Below, one piece after another: positions 51,368 to 60,344 of a stretch of 64,000 bases of DNA. This DNA comes from Aquificaceae bacterium (GTDB lineage Bacteria; Aquificota; Aquificia; Aquificales; Aquificaceae), in assembly GCA_027014155.1 (NCBI GenBank), contig JALWEG010000023.1, forward strand, positions 1-64,000, written 5' to 3'. How positions within the stretch are numbered: position 1 is the first letter of the stretch; the number at the start of each line of letters is the position of its first letter. The translations under genes were made by a program, and so were the position numbers. The notes beneath the pieces are model-generated. The model saw only the letters and a program-made list of their open reading frames with translations. It ran no database searches and was not told the origin of the DNA.

Positions 51368-52264
51368 TTATTTAAGTAAGTCCATGACCTTCTTTATGCT
51401 CACCCTCATGCGCTCAAAGGCCTTTCCGAGCTGGCCTATCTCGTCGTCCGACTGGATTGGAATCTCGTCGTCTATCTCACCACGGCTAATCTTATCCGCA
51501 TGCTCCCTTAAAACCTCAACGGGCTTGAAAACGTATCTGTTCAGAAGCACGAGAATTACTCCGACTATAAGTATATTTACCACAAAGGCCACCAATCCCT
51601 TGATTATCCCCTGAATCTGTGCTTTGAGAAGTATCGTCTCAAAGGGAACATAGACGAATATACCTCCCTGAACGTTGCCCACCTTCCACTGAGGGTCCCT
51701 TGAGGGTTTGTAAATCTCCTTGACCGAAGCGGGCATCGCGCTCAGGGTTCCGTGGCATCTCAGGCACTTGGCCTTAACCTTGACGGCGGAGGCCTTTATA
51801 AAGAACCTTTGGTTGTTTAAGGTCTCTATACCTTCGTAGCTGTCGCTTTTGGTCTGCCTGAAGTAGTTTATTATCTTCTTCTCCATCTGGTTGGGTGTGT
51901 TTTTCGGATTCAGGGGTGAAAAGGCCACCTGCCTGAGTCTGAAGTCCGGCATCTCCTCTCCCACCGCCCGGAATATGTTTCCGGCGAAGAAAGAAGAAGA
52001 TTGCGCCTCAAGTATGAAGTCTTCCTGTATGCAGCTGTAGCGTGAGATAAGCTGGTCTATCCTCGGCCTTAAAACACTTCTGACATAGCCCCTCGCCGCC
52101 TTGGTAAAGGCTAAGGCGGTCTGAATCCGTTCCCTGGTTCTCTCTACGGCGCTCTCCACCTCTTCCTTGTAGGTCATGTAAGCGACGGCAAGACCTTCGG
52201 CTATACCTATGATGAGTATAAAGATGGCTATCTTCCACTTTATGCTGTGGGGCAATAACCTCAT
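51368..52264 (-). CDS. Membrane heme-c sensor (Tll0287/DUF3365-like) with HAMP, no output domain
   Basis: 298 residues. A TM at ~9-29 and another at ~215-240 enclose a periplasmic DUF3365/Tll0287-like domain with one heme-c site CLRCH near residue 167 and the typical region before it (KASAVKVKAKCLRCHG). A HAMP domain follows (RYVFKPVEVLREHADKIS, DDEIGQLGKAFERM) and the chain ends there, with no kinase, cyclase or methyl-accepting domain. It is the last gene of the leftward roadblock/GTPase operon (4 bp overlap with the gene before), so signal output probably goes through the GTPase system. Confidence 0.75.
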   Translation of the reverse strand: MRLLPHSIKWKIAIFILIIGIAEGLAVAYMTYKEEVESAVERTRERIQTALAFTKAARGYVRSVLRPRIDQLISRYSCIQEDFILEAQSSSFFAGNIFRAVGEEMPDFRLRQVAFSPLNPKNTPNQMEKKIINYFRQTKSDSYEGIETLNNQRFFIKASAVKVKAKCLRCHGTLSAMPASVKEIYKPSRDPQWKVGNVQGGIFVYVPFETILLKAQIQGIIKGLVAFVVNILIVGVILVLLNRYVFKPVEVLREHADKISRGEIDDEIPIQSDDEIGQLGKAFERMRVSIKKVMDLLK

Positions 52265-53349
52265 TCTAAAGACCTCCTTACCTTATTTAAGAAGGCTTCC
52301 GAGTGTTTACCGTCTGGAATTTCGGAAGCCAGTTTCTCCAACAGTTTATCTATCATGCTTTTGGGAATTATATCCTCTTTGACGCCCAAATCCCGTAAGA
52401 TTCTGTTCCACAGTACAGGTCCTACGGGCCCTATCTCTTCAACGAAGGAGTCCCTTACCTTATGAACGATTTCCGGGGGTATCATCTCCACCTCAGTTTT
52501 ATCAAAGGATATCTCCAGGGGCGTGGGCGTGTTTATCAGGCTTATGGTCCACACGGAGACGGGACTCTCCAGCTCAAAGTTCGTGTATTCCACCTCCCCC
52601 AAGTCTAAGCTGTAGCTAAATATGGAGCTTCCCTTGTATATGAAACTAAACCTGCCACCCTTTCCGGATACCTCCTCGTATATGCCCGCATCAATCTCCT
52701 GCGGAGAGAAGAAGGTTTCCTTCTTTACCCCTATCCTCAGAGAGTTGGCCATGAGCGCTATCTCGGGCTCAAGGGTGTGTATGTGAATAAAGGTATCGTC
52801 TCCAAGCTTGCCGGCTATAAGGGATTGAGCCTCCATATCCCACACTTTGCCGGTGTTTAAGGCTATGGGAACGCCGTCGTAGAGAATGCAGACACCTACC
52901 ACCTCTATGGGATTGACCCATGCTATATAGCCCGTAAAGTGTCCCCTTTTGAAGGAGAGCAGAGCGTTGTCAAGGTTAAAGAGGGAAAACTTTATAGGGT
53001 CGGTTATCTCTTCCCCTATACCGGCGATTATGAGTGCCCTTACCTCCTCCAAGGAGTAATTCGGTCTGAATACGTTTGCGAGAGTTAAAGGGTCGGTTTC
53101 CACCACGTCTATAGCCCTGCCCCTGTCTATCCATACATAGTCTCCCATCTTCAGTTCCTCTTTGCTTCCGTCCTCCTTTACCGACACCACCTTCATAGGG
53201 TTGCCTTCCCAGAAGCCGATAAAGTCCTCGTAATCCCAGCCCTTATTTCTGATGTATCCGGTGAACTCTCTGTGCCGGAGTTCCTTTAGAAGTCCCCCTA
53301 AGTTGATTACCCCAAGCTCTAAGTTTTTATACAGAACCCTTCTCTGCAT
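52261..53349 (-). CDS. Unknown protein with two PATAN-like repeats, GTPase-linked
   Basis: 362-residue soluble protein. Two segments resemble each other and the PATAN/DUF4388-type fold: EFTGYIRNKG...GFWEGNP (about 28-51) and HFTGYIAWVN...ILYDGVP (about 137-161). The C-terminal 70 residues are helical (EIVHKVRDSFVEEIGPVGPV, MIDKLLEKLASEI). PATAN-type domains occur with roadblock proteins and small GTPases in several bacteria, which suits its place directly after the GTPase gene (23 bp overlap) and before the HAMP sensor. It may be the effector or adaptor of the module. The domain call is by eye only. Confidence 0.45.
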   Translation of the reverse strand: MQRRVLYKNLELGVINLGGLLKELRHREFTGYIRNKGWDYEDFIGFWEGNPMKVVSVKEDGSKEELKMGDYVWIDRGRAIDVVETDPLTLANVFRPNYSLEEVRALIIAGIGEEITDPIKFSLFNLDNALLSFKRGHFTGYIAWVNPIEVVGVCILYDGVPIALNTGKVWDMEAQSLIAGKLGDDTFIHIHTLEPEIALMANSLRIGVKKETFFSPQEIDAGIYEEVSGKGGRFSFIYKGSSIFSYSLDLGEVEYTNFELESPVSVWTISLINTPTPLEISFDKTEVEMIPPEIVHKVRDSFVEEIGPVGPVLWNRILRDLGVKEDIIPKSMIDKLLEKLASEIPDGKHSEAFLNKVRRSLE

Positions 53350-53896
53350 ACCTGTTTAGTACCTTTTTAACTATGGAAGAGAAGGTCTCAAGAACCCCTA
53401 TCCCCTCCGTAGCTACGCTTTCCACGTATTTGGTGCCCCAAGGATTGCAGACGGGCTCAAGCTCGTCTATGGGCAAAGCGTTGGGTAGGTCCCTCTTGTT
53501 GTACTGAACCACCACGGGGAGTTTGTAGAGGTCAAAGCCCTGCTCCTTGAGAACCGCCGCCGTCTCCCTCATCACGAGGAAGTTTATCTTCTCCCTGTCC
53601 GGGTGAGAATCAACTACGAATACCAGACCGTCAACACCCTGCACTATGGCCTTTCTGAGGGGGTGAAGCCTGAACTGGCCGGGCGTGGTCAGAATCTTCA
53701 TCTCAAAGGTCTCCCCCTCTATCTCTATGGAGCTGAGAAACATCTCCACGAACAGGGTTCTCTTTTCATCGGTTTCCATACTGACGAAATCGCCCTTGGC
53801 TATCCCCTTTTCCTTCAATATCTCATAAAGCTTTTTGACGGTGGTGCTCTTACCCGCCAGGCTTGCCCCGAAGTAAACTATCTTTAATTTCATCAT
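53327..53896 (-). CDS. Ras-like small GTPase (MglA/Arf-like)
   Basis: Single G domain of 189 residues. Seen: G1 GASLAGKSTT (10-19), a G3 region LTTPGQ (69-74) where the usual DTPG Asp is replaced by Thr, as in MglA-type proteins, and G4 YNKRDLP (132-138). It lacks membrane anchors. Its start overlaps the roadblock gene by 4 bp; roadblock proteins act as GAPs or partners of MglA-like GTPases, so the pair is a MglA/MglB-like switch. Function in this organism (polarity, motility or redox signalling) is unknown. Confidence 0.8.
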   Translation of the reverse strand: MMKLKIVYFGASLAGKSTTVKKLYEILKEKGIAKGDFVSMETDEKRTLFVEMFLSSIEIEGETFEMKILTTPGQFRLHPLRKAIVQGVDGLVFVVDSHPDREKINFLVMRETAAVLKEQGFDLYKLPVVVQYNKRDLPNALPIDELEPVCNPWGTKYVESVATEGIGVLETFSSIVKKVLNRYAEKGSV

Positions 53897-54381
53897 TGTC
53901 CGAGTATAGAGTTAAGCTTCTCCTCTATCATGTCGGGAGTAAGTTTAACAAGTTTGGAGGGCGTGAGCTTGATTTCTTTAAAATGTTTGCAAAGCTCATC
54001 AACCAGGTCCCTTATAAACAGCCTCACACTCCCTATGGCCACCCCCTTGGGACATATCACACCTATCAAAAACTTCTCGGACACGGCCTTAACTATCACG
54101 CTTTGATTTCTGGTTTCATACTGAATGGTATCCATCTCGTCCGAGTCGGATATGAACTTGGCCATCTCGGAAGCCGCACCGAAGAGGCCGCTTATTATGC
54201 TGGCTATGAACTCCACCGTAACCTCGTCCAAGTTCTTGCCGTAGAAGGATATGGTTCGCCCAGCCTTGTCGGCAAGCAGTATGAAGTCTGCCCCGCTCTT
54301 GTCTATAAACTTTTTCAAAGTCCTCCCCAACTTCTGCTCCGTCTCTTTGTCTATCTCATACTGAATTACATCAAGTTCCAT
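53893..54381 (-). CDS. Roadblock/LC7-domain protein (MglB-like)
   Basis: 162 residues with the roadblock fold: GADFILLADKAGRTISFYGK, EFIASIISGLFGAASEMAKF and VIVKAVSEKFLIGVICPKGV are the strand-helix-strand blocks of the family. About 40 extra residues at the C-terminus (KHFKEIKLTPSKLVKLTPDM) have no match to the basic domain. First gene of the four-gene operon, coupled to the GTPase by ATGA. It would be the GAP or dimer scaffold for the GTPase. Confidence 0.78.
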   Translation of the reverse strand: MELDVIQYEIDKETEQKLGRTLKKFIDKSGADFILLADKAGRTISFYGKNLDEVTVEFIASIISGLFGAASEMAKFISDSDEMDTIQYETRNQSVIVKAVSEKFLIGVICPKGVAIGSVRLFIRDLVDELCKHFKEIKLTPSKLVKLTPDMIEEKLNSILGQ

Positions 54382-54452: not shown

Positions 54453-57245
54453 ATGAACATACCCCAAGATTGGCTAAAGGTTGCCAAAAGCAACATCTAC
54501 GACCTTGACACCTCCCTCTCTTATTTCCAACAGCTGCTAAGCAAACATCCAAACCCCGACTCCCTTATATCTTACCTGAACGACAGAAGGTTTGCCCTCC
54601 TTCTTAGCCTCTTAGAGCAGTCCGAGTGCATAAGGAGGTTCCTACTCAATCACCCTACCGAGTTTGAGAAGACCATACCCAACCTCTGGTACGTGTCCAA
54701 AGAAAGGGAAGACTATCTTAAGGAGATAGAGTCCCTTCTGAGAGAAGACATGGAAGATTCTGAGCTTTCCCAAGTCCTCGCATTTTACAGGCACAGGGAG
54801 CTGATGAGGATAATGTCCAAGGAAATCCTCGGTGTGTGCGGCGTTGAAGACCTGGTCAGGGAGTACTCGTACCTACCGGACGCCATGCTTGAGGTCTGCT
54901 ACCGCAGAGCGCTGAAAGAGGCGGTTGAGAAGTTCGGCCAGCCCGTAGACGAGGAGGGCAACCCCGTAAAGGGCACCATTCTGGGACTGGGGAAGCTGGG
55001 AAGCGAAGAGTTGAACTACTACTCGGACATAGACCTGATATTTATCCACTCCTCGGACAAGGGCGGTGCCGGCAGGCTATCCGTAAACGAGTTCTTCTCT
55101 AAGGTCTTTCAGAAGGTATTCTCCCTCATGAACGCTCAGACTCTGGAGGGAAGACCTTACATAACCGACTTAGACCTTAGACCCTTTGGCAAGACGGGAC
55201 CCATATCCATGTCAGTCAGGAGTGCGGAGCTCTACTACGAGTCCTACGGCAGAGCCTGGGAGAGGTTTGCGCTTCTAAGGGCGAGGTACTGCGCCGGTGA
55301 TAGGGAGCTGGCCAACACCTTCCTTAAGGAGGTTGTGGAGCCTTTCGTCTTCTCCGGGGTGGACTACAGACTCATAGACGAGATAAAGAGCATGAAGAGG
55401 AAGATAGAGGCTCAGGCGAGCAAAAGGCTGTCCAAAGGTTTCAACGTCAAAACCGGGAGCGGAGGCATAAGGGAGGTTGAGTTTACCGTTCAATCTCTTA
55501 TAATCCTGCTGGGGAGCAAGCACAGGATTCTAAGGGAGTCCAACACCTTCAGAGGTATATGGAAGCTCGCCCAGTGGAACGTATTTTCCGAGGAGGAGGC
55601 ACACTTCCTTGAGAGAGCCTACTCTTTCCTACGCAAACTTGAGCACAAGGTTCAGATGCAGGGATGTATCCAGACGCAGGTCTTAAAAGAGCAGCAACAG
55701 GATAGGATAGCGAGGTTCATGGGCTACTCCTCCCAGGAGGAGTTTTTGAAGGATTTAAATTACTACGCCGAAGGCGTCAGGGAAATATTCAATAACTTAA
55801 TTCCCGAAAAGAGAAAGAGGGAGCTTGAACCTATTCAGGTGGCGGTGGTCAGCGAGGATACAGAATACGGGGAGTGGGTCCTAAAAGAGAAAGGCTTCAA
55901 GAGTCCGAGACAGAGCTTTAACCTGCTCACCACCTACTTCTCCGGCAGGCAGGGGTTGACCTTATCGGAGAAGGAGAAGGATATCCTGCTGGAGCTGCTT
56001 CCCCGTATAGTGGAGCTGGCGTCAAGGTGCTCCGAACCCGACGAGGTCATAAGGAACTTTGATAAGTTCTTCTCCAACCCCACCGGCAGGAAAGTGATAC
56101 TGAGCGAGGCGAAGGAGGACTTCCTTGAGGGACTCTTTACCGTGTTCTCCCTCTCCTCCTACCTCTCAAGCCTCATAAGCAAGAACCCAGACCTGGTGGA
56201 GGACGTGCTCACCCTCTACAGGGACTTTCCTTCCTTAGAGAACTTGGAGGAAGAGTTCACCAAGTATAAACAGACCCTTGAGCTGTCCAAGGAAAACCTC
56301 TTCAGGAGGTTCAAGAAGGTTTGGGAGATACGGATAGGCCTCGTCTTTCTGATGAAGGAGGAGGTTATGGAGCTAAAGCTCCGTTCCCTCTTTACCTCCC
56401 TGAGCATGCTTGCGGACTTTCTAATGAAAAAGCTTTGGGAAGAGGTGGGGTTGAAAGAGGAGAGAGCCTGCATGTTCGCCTTAGGTAAGCTGGGAAGCGG
56501 GGAGCTCAACTTCATGTCCGACCTTGACATGGTCTTTTGCGCCGACGGCTCGGACAGGTCGGAGGTTCACAGGAGGGTTCAGCGCCTGGTCAGGTTCATA
56601 ACCTCGCACACCTCGGAGGGCTACCTCTACGAGGTGGACTTCAGGCTCCGTCCCATGGGCACCAAAGGGGAGCTGGTGCCGGACTTGAGCTTCTACCGCA
56701 CCTACTTCCAGAAAGAGGCGAGGACGTGGGAGAGGCTCGCCTGGGTCAGAGCAAGGTACGTGGCCGGCAACGAAGAGGTGGCGGACGCTCTGGAAAAGGA
56801 GGTAAGGAAGTTCCTCTTTGAGCTTCCTTGGGGCGAGAGGGAGAGGAGAGAAGTCCTTCAGATGCGTAAGATGCTTGAGCAGAACGCCAAGGTGGGCAGG
56901 GGCATCTACGACCTGAAGCTGGGCTACGGAGGACTCGTGGACGCAGAGTTTCTGGTTCAATACCTGCTCATAAGGGAGAAGATTAGGGAGACCTCTATCT
57001 TGGAAGGCTTTAAAAGCCTAATGGAAAAATACCCCCTTAGGGAGGCTTACAAGAGCTATATATTCCTCAGAGCCGTGGAGACGGTGCTCAGGCTCTCCAA
57101 GGAAACGGGAAGCTCCGCTCTGAGGGATAAGGACTTTCCAAGGATAAGCAGGTTTCTAAGTATGGACGAGGAGGAGTTTTCCCAACAGCTCAGGAGAAAT
57201 AGGCAGATTTTGAGGGAGACATTCCTTGAGTTTTTGGGGGAGTGA
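54453..57245 (+). CDS. glnE: Bifunctional glutamine synthetase adenylyltransferase/deadenylase
   Basis: Switches glutamine synthetase by adenylylation and de-adenylylation in response to PII. Two nucleotidyltransferase domains are seen, each with the GxGxLGS...DxD motif: LGKLGSEELNYYSDIDLIFI in the first half and LGKLGSGELNFMSDLDMVF in the second, each followed by a helical domain. About 930 residues, standard. The frame has ATG at 54444 and 54453; the second, MNIPQDWLK, is preferred because TACAAT at 54437-54442 would otherwise touch the start. No glnB or glnA is nearby. Confidence 0.92.
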   Translation: MNIPQDWLKVAKSNIYDLDTSLSYFQQLLSKHPNPDSLISYLNDRRFALLLSLLEQSECIRRFLLNHPTEFEKTIPNLWYVSKEREDYLKEIESLLREDMEDSELSQVLAFYRHRELMRIMSKEILGVCGVEDLVREYSYLPDAMLEVCYRRALKEAVEKFGQPVDEEGNPVKGTILGLGKLGSEELNYYSDIDLIFIHSSDKGGAGRLSVNEFFSKVFQKVFSLMNAQTLEGRPYITDLDLRPFGKTGPISMSVRSAELYYESYGRAWERFALLRARYCAGDRELANTFLKEVVEPFVFSGVDYRLIDEIKSMKRKIEAQASKRLSKGFNVKTGSGGIREVEFTVQSLIILLGSKHRILRESNTFRGIWKLAQWNVFSEEEAHFLERAYSFLRKLEHKVQMQGCIQTQVLKEQQQDRIARFMGYSSQEEFLKDLNYYAEGVREIFNNLIPEKRKRELEPIQVAVVSEDTEYGEWVLKEKGFKSPRQSFNLLTTYFSGRQGLTLSEKEKDILLELLPRIVELASRCSEPDEVIRNFDKFFSNPTGRKVILSEAKEDFLEGLFTVFSLSSYLSSLISKNPDLVEDVLTLYRDFPSLENLEEEFTKYKQTLELSKENLFRRFKKVWEIRIGLVFLMKEEVMELKLRSLFTSLSMLADFLMKKLWEEVGLKEERACMFALGKLGSGELNFMSDLDMVFCADGSDRSEVHRRVQRLVRFITSHTSEGYLYEVDFRLRPMGTKGELVPDLSFYRTYFQKEARTWERLAWVRARYVAGNEEVADALEKEVRKFLFELPWGERERREVLQMRKMLEQNAKVGRGIYDLKLGYGGLVDAEFLVQYLLIREKIRETSILEGFKSLMEKYPLREAYKSYIFLRAVETVLRLSKETGSSALRDKDFPRISRFLSMDEEEFSQQLRRNRQILRETFLEFLGE

Positions 57246-57246
57246 G

Positions 57247-58344
57247 ATGATAGACTTAGAGGTTCTTAAAGAGGCGGTAAGGAAGAGAAAGGCACGCTCC
57301 GAAACCTACGGAGACCTGGAATTCCTAAGATTCTCCGACGACTTTCAAGATGTGCCCAGAGGAACGGTGGTTTTCAAGGAGGAGGTAATCTGGGGTTATC
57401 CTCACATAGGCAGGATATTTATGTTAGAGAAGGGACTGCGTGAGCAGTTTACCTCCCCCTTCTGGGTGGAGGAAAAGATAGACGGCTACAACGTCAGGGT
57501 GTTTAAGAACGAAAAGGGCGTATTTGCCCTCAGCAGGGGAGGGTATATCTGTCCCTTTACCACCGACAGGTTGGCTGACCTGATAAACCTGCGCTTCTTT
57601 GAAGATAATCCAGACCTCGTGCTCTGCATGGAGGTGGCGGGCCCGGAGAACCCGTACATAGAGGAAAGTCCTCCCTTCGTTCATGAGGATGTAGCCGCGT
57701 TCGTGTTTGATATCGCTTTTAAGAACTCGCGGAAGTTCCTGCCGGTTGAACAGAAGATAGAGCTTTTGGAGAGGTACGGGCTGCCGGGGGTCAACGTCTT
57801 CGGAAGATTCACCCACGGAGACATACCCAAGATAAAGGAGATTCTCCTTCGCTTGGATAGGGAGGGCAGGGAAGGCATAGTTATAAAGGAGGACTCACCC
57901 TCAGACAGGAGAGCCAAGTACATAACCAGATACGCTAATCTGAACGACATAAGGATAACCTCCAAAAATATGCTCCAGCTGCCCCCGGAGTATTACACCA
58001 ACAGGATACTCCGCCTCGTGCTCTTTATGGAGGAGGAGGGTCTGAAGGAGGATACAGAACTTCACAGGGAGTTGGGAAAGGCCTTCCTTCACGGCCTATT
58101 TGAGGCACTGGAGGAATTCAAGAAGGATAGAAAGGTTTCAACTTCCTACAGGTGTAGGTTCAGAACCAAGGAGAACGCACTCCTATTCATGGAACAGATG
58201 CGCAGACGCTCCAAACATATACAGATAATACAAAGGAGCCTGGAAAAGGAAGGGGAGTTTTACCTTTTAGAGTTTGAAAAGGTGTTCATGAACATGACGG
58301 GGCTCTTAGGCCATCTACTAAGTGGAGGCCTTGTGTTTGATTAA
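57247..58344 (+). CDS. ATP-dependent RNA ligase, Pab1020/Rnl3 family
   Basis: Homodimeric archaeal-type RNA ligase found in archaea and Aquificales. Seen: nucleotidyl lysine K77 in [13 protein letters not shown] (KxDG), then motif-like blocks [40 protein letters not shown] and RAKYITRY. 365 residues from the ATG giving MIDLEVLKE, one base after the glnE stop. Members join 5'-phosphate and 3'-OH ends and can circularise RNA in vitro; the role in the cell is not settled. The convergent gene on the other strand is its known family partner, overlapping by 27 bp. Confidence 0.88.
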
Positions 58345-58908
58345 GCCTTCCATTATCCCTCTTAGGTTCTTAGGATTTATGAGCTTTATCCCTACCTTGT
58401 CAGCCCACTTTCTGAGTCCGTCGTCTCCGGAAACGAGGACGGCATCAAGCTCGTAGGCGAGCAGCAGAACGTCCACGTCCTCCTTGCTATCAATTATGCC
58501 CTGTCTGAGAGCTTCCCTGTACTTCTCCCGGAGCTTACTCACGAGCTTGCCTACGCTTTCCCCGCTTACCTTGCCCGCTTCCTTCGTATGCTCTTCGGCG
58601 ATTCTCAATCCCTTGTTTATCCTATGTCTAATCTCCTCTATGAGTTCGTAAAGCAGCTCGCTGGGAATCTTCAGGTTGAACTTTCTGGGAGAGCGAATCT
58701 TAACCACCAACTCAAACTCCGGAGCCAGATGCTTTAGCTCCACCATCTTCAGGAACTCCGAATATACGGAAGAAGGCATGTAGAACTCTGCATTCGTGTG
58801 CAGGGCCAGATGAATGAAGTTCTCTATAGCACCCTCTCTGTCCTTCTGGAACTGCTGGTACACGTCCGGATTTGTGAAAACGCTGGTATCAAGAACGAAA
58901 CTCTCCAT
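58318..58908 (-). CDS. RNA ligase partner protein (PIN-like)
   Basis: 196-residue PIN-domain protein of the MJ_1548 family that accompanies Pab1020-type RNA ligases. Seen: [12 protein letters not shown] with the first Asp, [11 protein letters not shown] with the Glu, [20 protein letters not shown] and [16 protein letters not shown] with the further acidic residues of a PIN nuclease active site, all intact. PIN domains are Mg-dependent RNases, so nuclease and ligase together could form a cut-and-seal pair. The two genes are convergent instead of in an operon. Confidence 0.82.
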
Positions 58909-58941
58909 AAGCTTTATTTTAGTCCCTAAAAGAAGCTCTTA

Positions 58942-58976
58942 TTGCAATACGTTTTCTTCGGTGTCAAAATTGACAC
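58942..58976 (+). promoter_or_regulatory. Promoter and overlapping operator of the sigma-54 activator gene
   Basis: TTGCAA, a 17-base spacer and CAAAAT give a housekeeping-type promoter whose -10 is six bases from the ATG. The -10 is buried in a perfect 16-base dyad, GTGTCAA-AA-TTGACAC, that ends at the base before the start codon. The core TGTCA-N4-TGACA is the same as the boxes upstream of the sulfide operon, so the activator probably represses its own gene here. Confidence 0.55.
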
Positions 58977-60344
58977 ATGGGAGGAATACTACTCGTTGAG
59001 GACGACAAGAATCTAAGGGAGCTTTTAAAGAAAAAAATAATAGCCACGGGTCGTCCTACGGAGGCTGTCGGCACCGGGGAAGAGGCCAGAGCCTTGATAG
59101 AGAACAAGAGCTTTGACGTGGTGGTTATAGACGTAAGGCTACCCGATGTTGACGGTATAGAGATTGTTCGGGAGTTCTCCGAGAAGTTCGGCACCAAGTT
59201 CATAGTCATAACGGGATACGGAGACGTAAACACGGCCGTAAAAGCTATGAAGAACGGGGCTTACGACTTTATTCAAAAGCCCTTCAGCTTTGAGATACTT
59301 GAGGTTAGCATAGAGAAGGCTTTAAAGGAGAAGAGATTGGAGGACGAGAACAAAACCCTTAAAAAGATACTAAAAGGGAAAGGGGAGGAATTCATGCTTG
59401 AGACCAGGAGCAGGAGGTTCAAGGAGTTGCTGGCCACCGCTGAGAGGGTGGCTAAAACGGACGCCAACGTCCTCATAAGGGGAGAGACGGGCACCGGTAA
59501 AGAGGTACTTGCCCGCTACCTGCACGACATATCTCCCAGGAGAGAAAAACCCTTCGTCATAGTAGATTGCACATCTATTCCGGAACATCTATTTGAAAGT
59601 GAACTCTTCGGCTACGAGAAGGGAGCCTTCACCGGCGCAACCCAGAAGAAGCTGGGGCTTGTGGAGATAGCCGACGGAGGGACCATCTTCTTGGACGAAA
59701 TAGGAGAGCTTCCCCTCCCGATTCAGGCCAAGCTATTGAGGTTCGTGGAGAGCAGGAGGTTCAGGAGGGTAGGAGGACTCAGGGAGATAGAGGTTGACGT
59801 AAGGATAGTGTCCGCCACAAACAGAGACCTGTACACCATGGCGGCGGCCGGGGAGTTCAGAGAAGACCTGCTTTACAGGCTCAACACCATAGAGCTTGAA
59901 GTTCCTCCTCTGAGAGAGAGAAAAGAAGACATTCCTCTCTTGGTTATGCACTTTCTCAAGAGGTTCAAGAAAAAGGTTAAGGAAGAGACTCTGAACAAGA
60001 TGATGAGTATGAACTGGAGAGGTAATATCAGAGAGTTGAGGAACACCTTAGAGCGTGCGGCTCTCCTTTCCAAAGACGAGTACATAGACGAATCTTTGTG
60101 CCTTAGCCTGCCGCCGAGCGGTGGCTGCATAGAAAACGTGTTTGAGGAGCTACCTGACCTCAGAGAGCTGGAAGGCAAATACATAGAGTTCCTATACAAA
60201 AAGTTTGATGGGGACATAGACAGGATAGCTACCGTATTGGGGTGTAGCAGGAGAACCGTTTTCAGGAAACTAAGAGAGCTCCGTAAAAGGCACGCTGACG
60301 ATAAAGACGCTGCCCTTCCCGGGAGCGCTGTCAACGTGGATTGA
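58977..60344 (+). CDS. NtrC-family sigma-54-dependent response regulator
   Basis: 455 residues in three domains: receiver (ILLVEDDKN at the start, phospho-acceptor D52 in VIDVRLPDVDG), AAA+ sigma-54 interaction domain (GETGTGKEVLARYLH; the GAFTGA loop in EKGAFTGATQKK; GGTIFLDEIGELPL) and a Fis-type HTH (IDRIATVLGCSRRTVFRKLR). All motifs for activating sigma-54 polymerase are intact. Its cognate kinase is the convergent gene downstream, which overlaps it by 75 bp, and a sigma-54 promoter lies just beyond at the sulfide operon. Confidence 0.93.
   Translation: MGGILLVEDDKNLRELLKKKIIATGRPTEAVGTGEEARALIENKSFDVVVIDVRLPDVDGIEIVREFSEKFGTKFIVITGYGDVNTAVKAMKNGAYDFIQKPFSFEILEVSIEKALKEKRLEDENKTLKKILKGKGEEFMLETRSRRFKELLATAERVAKTDANVLIRGETGTGKEVLARYLHDISPRREKPFVIVDCTSIPEHLFESELFGYEKGAFTGATQKKLGLVEIADGGTIFLDEIGELPLPIQAKLLRFVESRRFRRVGGLREIEVDVRIVSATNRDLYTMAAAGEFREDLLYRLNTIELEVPPLRERKEDIPLLVMHFLKRFKKKVKEETLNKMMSMNWRGNIRELRNTLERAALLSKDEYIDESLCLSLPPSGGCIENVFEELPDLRELEGKYIEFLYKKFDGDIDRIATVLGCSRRTVFRKLRELRKRHADDKDAALPGSAVNVD

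Follow-up and report, generated by a model that had tools for sequence, protein, structure and literature searches.

The 64,000-nucleotide stretch of contig JALWEG010000023.1 (assembly GCA_027014155.1) that we analysed as a whole, hereafter the window, carries a four-gene operon in which a membrane receptor ending after its HAMP domain and a protein with a STAC domain are encoded together with a roadblock protein and a small GTPase. On sequence grounds, the receptor and the STAC protein are recognisable as the Af1503/Af1502 pair of Archaeoglobus fulgidus, because the STAC domain matches AF1502, the best HAMP match is AF1503 and the receptor tails align. The host is a 1.86 Mb genome of the family Aquificaceae, and the records nearest to the GTPase are Aquificaceae metagenome-assembled genomes (MAGs; 92% identity). 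All four genes lie on the minus strand and encode, from the first gene on, the roadblock protein (ROAD), the GTPase (GTP), a putative adaptor of 362 residues (P362) and the receptor (SENS); the coordinates of the open reading frames (ORFs) confirmed the head-to-tail overlaps of 4, 23 and 4 bp given in a preliminary description of this DNA. The order ROAD-GTP-P362-SENS recurs in many Aquificaceae, which rules out artefact or chance as the origin of the operon. We hold with moderate confidence that it encodes kinase-free signalling from a receptor through a STAC adaptor to a roadblock/GTPase switch, and the coupling of the receptor to the G-protein module is strongly inferred.

By profile and by model alike, the C-terminus of P362 is a STAC domain, which the preliminary description had overlooked. 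Searched whole against Pfam, P362 gave no match above threshold; a match to DUF3206 (0.053) lay below the cut-off and was rejected. The AlphaFold2 model computed from 41 homologues, with a predicted local distance difference test (pLDDT) score of 90.1, showed three beta-rich repeat units and, at the C-terminal end (residues ~292-361), a bundle of four helices. With the whole P362 family as profile, a single chain in the PDB was matched, AF1502, at E 0.12, and a profile confined to the helical part returned AF1502 as the sole significant match (hmmsearch, E 3.4e-5). Foldseek aligned the model with AF1502 at probability 0.99, TM(target) 0.72 and a root-mean-square deviation of 3.1; its matches to sliding clamps (ranks 1-10, probability <=0.10, TM ~0.1) were rejected as chance. 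AF1502 defines the STAC domain, in which the motif LGPx(x)A joins helices 1 and 2 (PMC4834066). The corresponding [IVLM]GP[VILMF][GA] was found in nearly all STAC members of our alignment, with G and P invariant and the last position mostly G in Aquificaceae, A in some.

SENS matched the Tll0287-like and HAMP families in Pfam; two hydrophobic segments flank its periplasmic domain, and the protein stops 7 residues past the HAMP model with no enzymatic domain. Together with the CLRCH motif, these features uphold the earlier reading of a two-transmembrane heme-c sensor that ends after HAMP. The classic HAMP structures came from Af1503, and it was AF1503 that gave the best PDB match to the HAMP domain of SENS (E 6e-11), the tail DEIGILAKSIERLRRSLKVAMESL of AF1503 aligning with DEIGQLGKAFERMRVSIKKVMDLLK of SENS. 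Throughout the loci, 0-12 residues followed the HAMP model in all HAMP matches but one, an unrelated ORF in locus L186. In 76 STAC-free loci (657 kb), matches to the HAMP profile were confined to loci fetched for or containing the receptor, plus one unrelated ORF.

The other two proteins also proved to be what the preliminary description had taken them for, an MglB-like roadblock protein and a Ras-like GTPase with TTPGQ in switch II. GTP matched Ras (2e-10) and Arf (5e-9) in Pfam and MglA best in the PDB, and the P-loop, the switch I Arg-Thr, TTPGQ and NKRD are conserved in the module GTPases. The definition of MglA Group 1 includes an intrinsic Arg adjacent to the Thr of G2 (PMC4316618). This Arg (R46-T47) is kept across 14 module GTPases, but TTPGQ replaces the Group 1 TVPGQ in all 14, and we therefore class the enzyme no further than as MglA-like and close to Group 1. 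ROAD, with a roadblock/LC7 fold encoded beside an mglA-like gene, matched Robl_LC7 in Pfam and MglB best in the PDB, and by homology to MglB is probably a GTPase-activating protein (GAP).

An alignment of the GTPase served as query for a scan of 84,980 genomes, and the neighbouring genes were then read with profile hidden Markov models. Twenty-eight loci formed a tight clade of orthologs at 58-92% identity, the next-nearest MglA proteins reaching at most about 40%. Of the 28, 23 carried STAC as well as a HAMP-terminal receptor, one had a receptor only, at a contig edge, and 4 were truncated by contig ends on the side where these genes would be expected. By the same profiles, none of 52 other MglA loci, the second MglA of Aquificaceae included, had STAC or a HAMP-terminal receptor. 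Among 64 Aquificaceae genomes, the GTPase ortholog and P362 were both present in 36 and both absent in 25, and the discordant 3 were all fragmentary MAGs (counts read from tables). Because presence and absence vary inside several genera (g2, g4, g7 and g9), the two genes appear to be gained or lost together. In the complete single-contig genome G058 the operon is split into three places, with the receptor at 198 kb, the roadblock gene at 362 kb and P362 with the GTPase at 659 kb, and all four genes are retained. The suggestion that the set travels together was thus substantiated within Aquificaceae; the patterns that the preliminary description had named as speaking against a module, an orphan sensor or an adjacent kinase or chemoreceptor, were looked for there and not seen.

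The sensor part of the receptor is exchangeable. Genus g3 carries, upstream of the roadblock and GTPase genes, a second P362 together with a dCache_3-HAMP receptor, the latter replacing or accompanying the heme receptor. The two receptors have nothing recognisable in common outside the membrane and share the identical tail RMR[VIL]SIKKVMDL[LM]; the conserved receptor element is the HAMP end, as would be expected if this were the output surface. Hence the earlier inclusion of a heme-c sensor in the module holds for this operon, but the heme domain is not essential: some species have the dCache sensor, and in family f2 only a transmembrane segment and HAMP are found. Some g3 genomes have a further small cluster (L171:1154-2613), in which two HAMP-only proteins of 125 and 131 aa are accompanied by a STAC protein of 228 aa that aligns with roadblock-STAC fusions; the cluster adjoins ribosomal protein genes and has no adjacent GTPase.

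Family f2, of the same order and presumably Hydrogenothermaceae, has a 129-aa transmembrane-HAMP protein, a STAC protein, a roadblock protein, a true PATAN protein (DUF4388, 1.6e-20) and a GTPase from a different MglA-type group, with GTPGQ and without the Arg finger. In f2, STAC and an MglB-like roadblock are fused in a single protein (hhalign probability 93.8, E 1.7e-7); against PDB MglB the fusion gave E ~0.02, and its modelled N-terminal domain matched MglB in Foldseek at E 2.9e-6 and probability 1.0. A MecA match of the fusion (E 5e-4) falls in a low-complexity acidic linker and was rejected. By its domain composition, this fusion is direct evidence for STAC working with roadblock regulators. 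Directly upstream of the 129-aa gene, a multi-transmembrane protein of ~170 aa is conserved (L066:6155-6664; L156:4019-4534; L163:7222-7728), which may supply the sensor that the HAMP protein lacks.

For other phyla STAC alone was the query, which makes a nearby receptor an independent observation. STAC was carried by 24 of 297 genomes in the phylum of the Acidobacteriota genome, by 1 of 301 in that of the Chloroflexi genome and by 2 of 284 in that of the Deltaproteobacteria genome. All 20 STAC loci read in the Acidobacteriota and Chloroflexi groups had a HAMP-terminal receptor within ~2 kb, directly adjacent in 17, three of those being convergent. Several of these loci encode a weak roadblock match (Robl_LC7 1.5e-4), a PATAN-STAC protein (DUF4388 3.8e-24) and a separate protein homologous to the N-terminal part of P362 (E ~1e-12). 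Because this part stands alone in the other-phylum operons, P362 looks like a fusion of two proteins kept separate there. In the Deltaproteobacteria group, locus L189 has a HAMP-terminal receptor three genes from STAC, and L190 has a roadblock-STAC fusion and no receptor. The L190 cluster (L190:3172-7744) comprises a roadblock-like ORF, the fusion, a PATAN-like protein and a Ser/Thr protein kinase, with no adjacent HAMP receptor. HAMP-terminal receptors also stand beside PhnD-like periplasmic binding proteins (L189:6107-9532, with a STAC protein; L154:2651-4379; L155:1383-3099), which may present a ligand to the receptor. In family f5 the heme-HAMP receptor adjoins a DUF4388-STAC protein. At L069:7840-8430 (G114:C5) a heme-HAMP receptor is shortened by an in-frame TGA, reflecting either a pseudogene or a sequencing error, with an intact DUF4388-STAC gene alongside.

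Features of the operon and their positions in the window (all on the minus strand), with the evidence for each.
Feature	Position	Strand	Evidence
ROAD, MglB-like roadblock/LC7 protein, 162 aa, putative GAP; first gene of the operon	53893..54381	-	Robl_LC7 5.1e-11; PDB MglB 2e-7
GTP, MglA-like small GTPase, 189 aa	53327..53896	-	PDB MglA 2.6e-37
R46-T47, intrinsic arginine finger position beside G2 Thr, as in MglA Group 1	53756..53761	-	Alignment; Group 1 definition from PMC4316618
G3 motif TTPGQ, GTP residues 70-74	53675..53689	-	In 14/14 Aquificaceae module GTPases; GTPGQ in f2
P362, putative adaptor, 362 aa; beta-rich repeats (weakly PATAN-like), then C-terminal STAC	52261..53349	-	AlphaFold2 model
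STAC domain, P362 residues ~285-362	52264..52497	-	AF1502 profile and Foldseek matches
IGPVG, P362 residues 306-310, counterpart of STAC LGPx(x)A between helices 1 and 2	52420..52434	-	STAC alignment
SENS, HAMP-terminal receptor, 298 aa; transmembrane segment, periplasmic sCache_heme, transmembrane segment, HAMP, short tail	51368..52264	-	Pfam, hydropathy, 20-homologue alignment
sCache_heme (Tll0287-like, PF11845)	51644..52153	-	E 1.6e-29; second search E 4.1e-30
CLRCH heme-c attachment motif, SENS residues 167-171	51752..51766	-	C167, C170 and H171 invariant in 20 homologues
HAMP domain, SENS residues 240-291	51392..51547	-	PF00672 2.3e-13; best PDB HAMP match AF1503
C-terminal tail ERMRVSIKKVMDLLK, SENS residues 284-298, proposed STAC-docking helix	51371..51415	-	Common to heme and dCache receptors; similar in f2 and AF1503

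The PATAN-like FTGYI repeats that the preliminary description saw in P362 are present (residues 29-33 and 138-142), but the PATAN identity of this N-terminal part is weakly supported: the DUF4388 profile matched 1 of 22 members (0.007) and hhalign gave a probability of 2. An Acidobacteriota relative matched DUF4388 at 0.009, and the f5 STAC proteins carry a true DUF4388. PATAN genes are reported to occur near mglB (PMC4316618). The second mglA-like gene of the genome overlaps a gene for a 476-aa protein (L157:5007-7012, G000:C4) with a profile match to the N-terminal part of P362 (E 1.5e-7); direct BLASTP of P362 against this protein was not significant. Since a protein resembling this part also adjoins the second mglA, the repeats of P362 may bind the GTPase.

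From these data we infer a route whose contacts (STAC with HAMP, P362 with the roadblock protein and GTPase), direction, ligand and cellular output would be as follows. A receptor dimer would detect a periplasmic cue, at best guess NO (nitric oxide) or redox state, through its heme-c Cache domain, and a change in HAMP packing would relay the signal across the membrane. The short C-terminal helix after HAMP would act on the STAC four-helix bundle of P362, whose beta-rich part would in turn act on the roadblock protein and the GTPase, shifting the balance of GTP and GDP forms, with the GTPase as output switch. In f2 the route would be shorter, STAC being fused to the MglB-like roadblock. Motility or pili as the output is a guess drawn from MglA of Myxococcus.

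Regarding the ligand, a 2026 preprint describes the Tll0287 domain as a heme-c Cache domain; stand-alone sCache_heme forms with an axial Cys resemble redox proteins, while a Pseudomonas azotoformans protein with this sensor domain, two transmembrane helices, HAMP as its only cytoplasmic part and no axial Cys binds NO tightly, no output partner being reported for it (PMC12889525). SENS likewise combines transmembrane segments and HAMP, and it has ILEAQSS where stand-alone Aquificota homologues carry the axial Cys (VC[SN]KKA), a replacement from which an NO sensor is predicted. C78 (window 52031-52033), near-invariant in Aquificaceae, lies eight residues N-terminal to the lost position, and because it could be another heme ligand or form a disulphide, redox sensing has to be weighed as well. 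That the sensor domain is an electron-transport redox protein, the operon adjusting energy metabolism in response to redox state and not NO, would agree with the action of the stand-alone proteins and with the extra Cys; given that SENS is of the type shown to bind NO (PMC12889525), we consider it possible though rather doubtful. It bears on the ligand alone and leaves the coupling untouched.

Several observations weigh against the coupling we propose. The Foldseek E-value for AF1502 is only 0.25, as expected for a 70-residue helical domain; two f2 genomes (L154, L155) have a heme-HAMP-only receptor but no STAC neighbour; archaeal STAC/HAMP-only receptors are linked to transporters (PMC4834066); and no GTPase is adjacent in f5 or the other phyla, so that the GTPase is perhaps not a universal output. 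The earlier claim that the GTPase system is the only possible output within the operon is accordingly to be qualified, the conserved HAMP partner being STAC. The operon could then hold two modules that are merely co-expressed, the roadblock and GTPase forming their own polarity switch and the receptor with P362-STAC regulating something else, for example transport, to which STAC is tied in the literature (PMC4834066, PMC13022988). We regard this as unlikely, since STAC is fused to a roadblock in f2 and L190, two distinct GTPase lineages are paired with STAC, loss is all-or-none and all genes are kept in G058 after the break-up of the operon; moreover, a transporter link of the archaeal kind was not seen in the Aquificaceae loci inspected. 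Very improbable, although kinases or methyl-accepting chemotaxis proteins (MCPs) are the usual HAMP outputs and PF11845 is often fused to them elsewhere (PMC12889525), is a receptor forming mixed dimers or arrays in trans with histidine kinases or chemoreceptors, with STAC as an assembly factor, given that the operons inspected adjoin no such gene, the constant partner is STAC with roadblock/PATAN and the tail is kept across receptors with differing sensor domains. An ordinary two-component sensor was rejected, no kinase lying inside or beside the operon.

We file the operon among prokaryotic G-protein systems. In A. fulgidus, as here, nothing but a tail very similar to that of SENS follows the HAMP domain of the receptor, and an adjacent, translationally coupled gene encodes STAC, one instance of the genomic coupling of STAC proteins to archaeal receptors with HAMP as the only cytoplasmic part; that pair, however, is archaeal, lies in an operon with an MgtE-type transporter and has no reported roadblock, PATAN or GTPase protein (PMC4834066). 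Moreover, Af1502 is a stand-alone STAC protein, whereas here the domain forms part of a large, beta-rich protein encoded next to MglAB. CbrA and other SLC5-STAC-histidine kinases contain STAC as a connector (PMC4834066) that stands, as proposed here, between membrane input and cytoplasmic output (PMC13022988), but it is fused to transporter and kinase, while in our operon it lies in trans to the HAMP receptor. The MglA/MglB polarity module of Myxococcus and Thermus shares the GTPase and roadblock GAP families and the position of the intrinsic Arg finger; its mglBA genes have no neighbouring membrane receptor gene, and TVPGQ stands in place of TTPGQ. An analogue for the coupling of a HAMP sensor to MglB/MglA is already known in the actinobacterial conservons (AGPS, CvnA-D), which combine HAMP histidine kinases with these proteins (PMC13343842, PMC4316618). 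There, the CvnA sensor is a histidine kinase that contains DHp and ATPase domains, CvnC is a protein with a domain of unknown function (DUF) and not STAC, and the GTPase is MglA Group 2, whereas SENS ends after HAMP and the operon is without a kinase domain. The coupling had been called undescribed, which must be narrowed in view of the conservon analogue; our literature search found no report of STAC with roadblock/GTPase proteins, nor of HAMP-terminal receptors with MglA/MglB, although earlier mention in the original STAC paper or in Makarova 2006 is possible.

To our knowledge, no output has so far been known for receptors with HAMP as their sole cytoplasmic part, and the operon offers a possible destination for the signal of these "output-less" receptors. 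If the proposed route is true, bacteria would have receptor-to-small-GTPase signalling without a kinase, with a function that lies nearer to eukaryotic receptor/G-protein pathways than that of two-component systems does. More tentatively, HAMP-terminal receptors with STAC might constitute a general type of transmembrane signalling in bacteria, existing alongside two-component systems and chemotaxis, with a roadblock/PATAN/MglA-type network on the cytoplasmic side and Af1503/Af1502 as archaeal relative, a proposal that we rate as somewhat doubtful. The genes for receptor, STAC adaptor, GAP-like protein and G protein adjoin in thermophiles, whose proteins should be stable, and the route is thus testable in vitro.

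A promoter and terminator scan at the operon gave a number of sites not above that in shuffled sequences. On the 5' side of the operon (window 57226-60344) lie an archaeal-type RNA ligase-like gene and genes for a PIN-like protein and an NtrC-family response regulator, as named by sequence reading.

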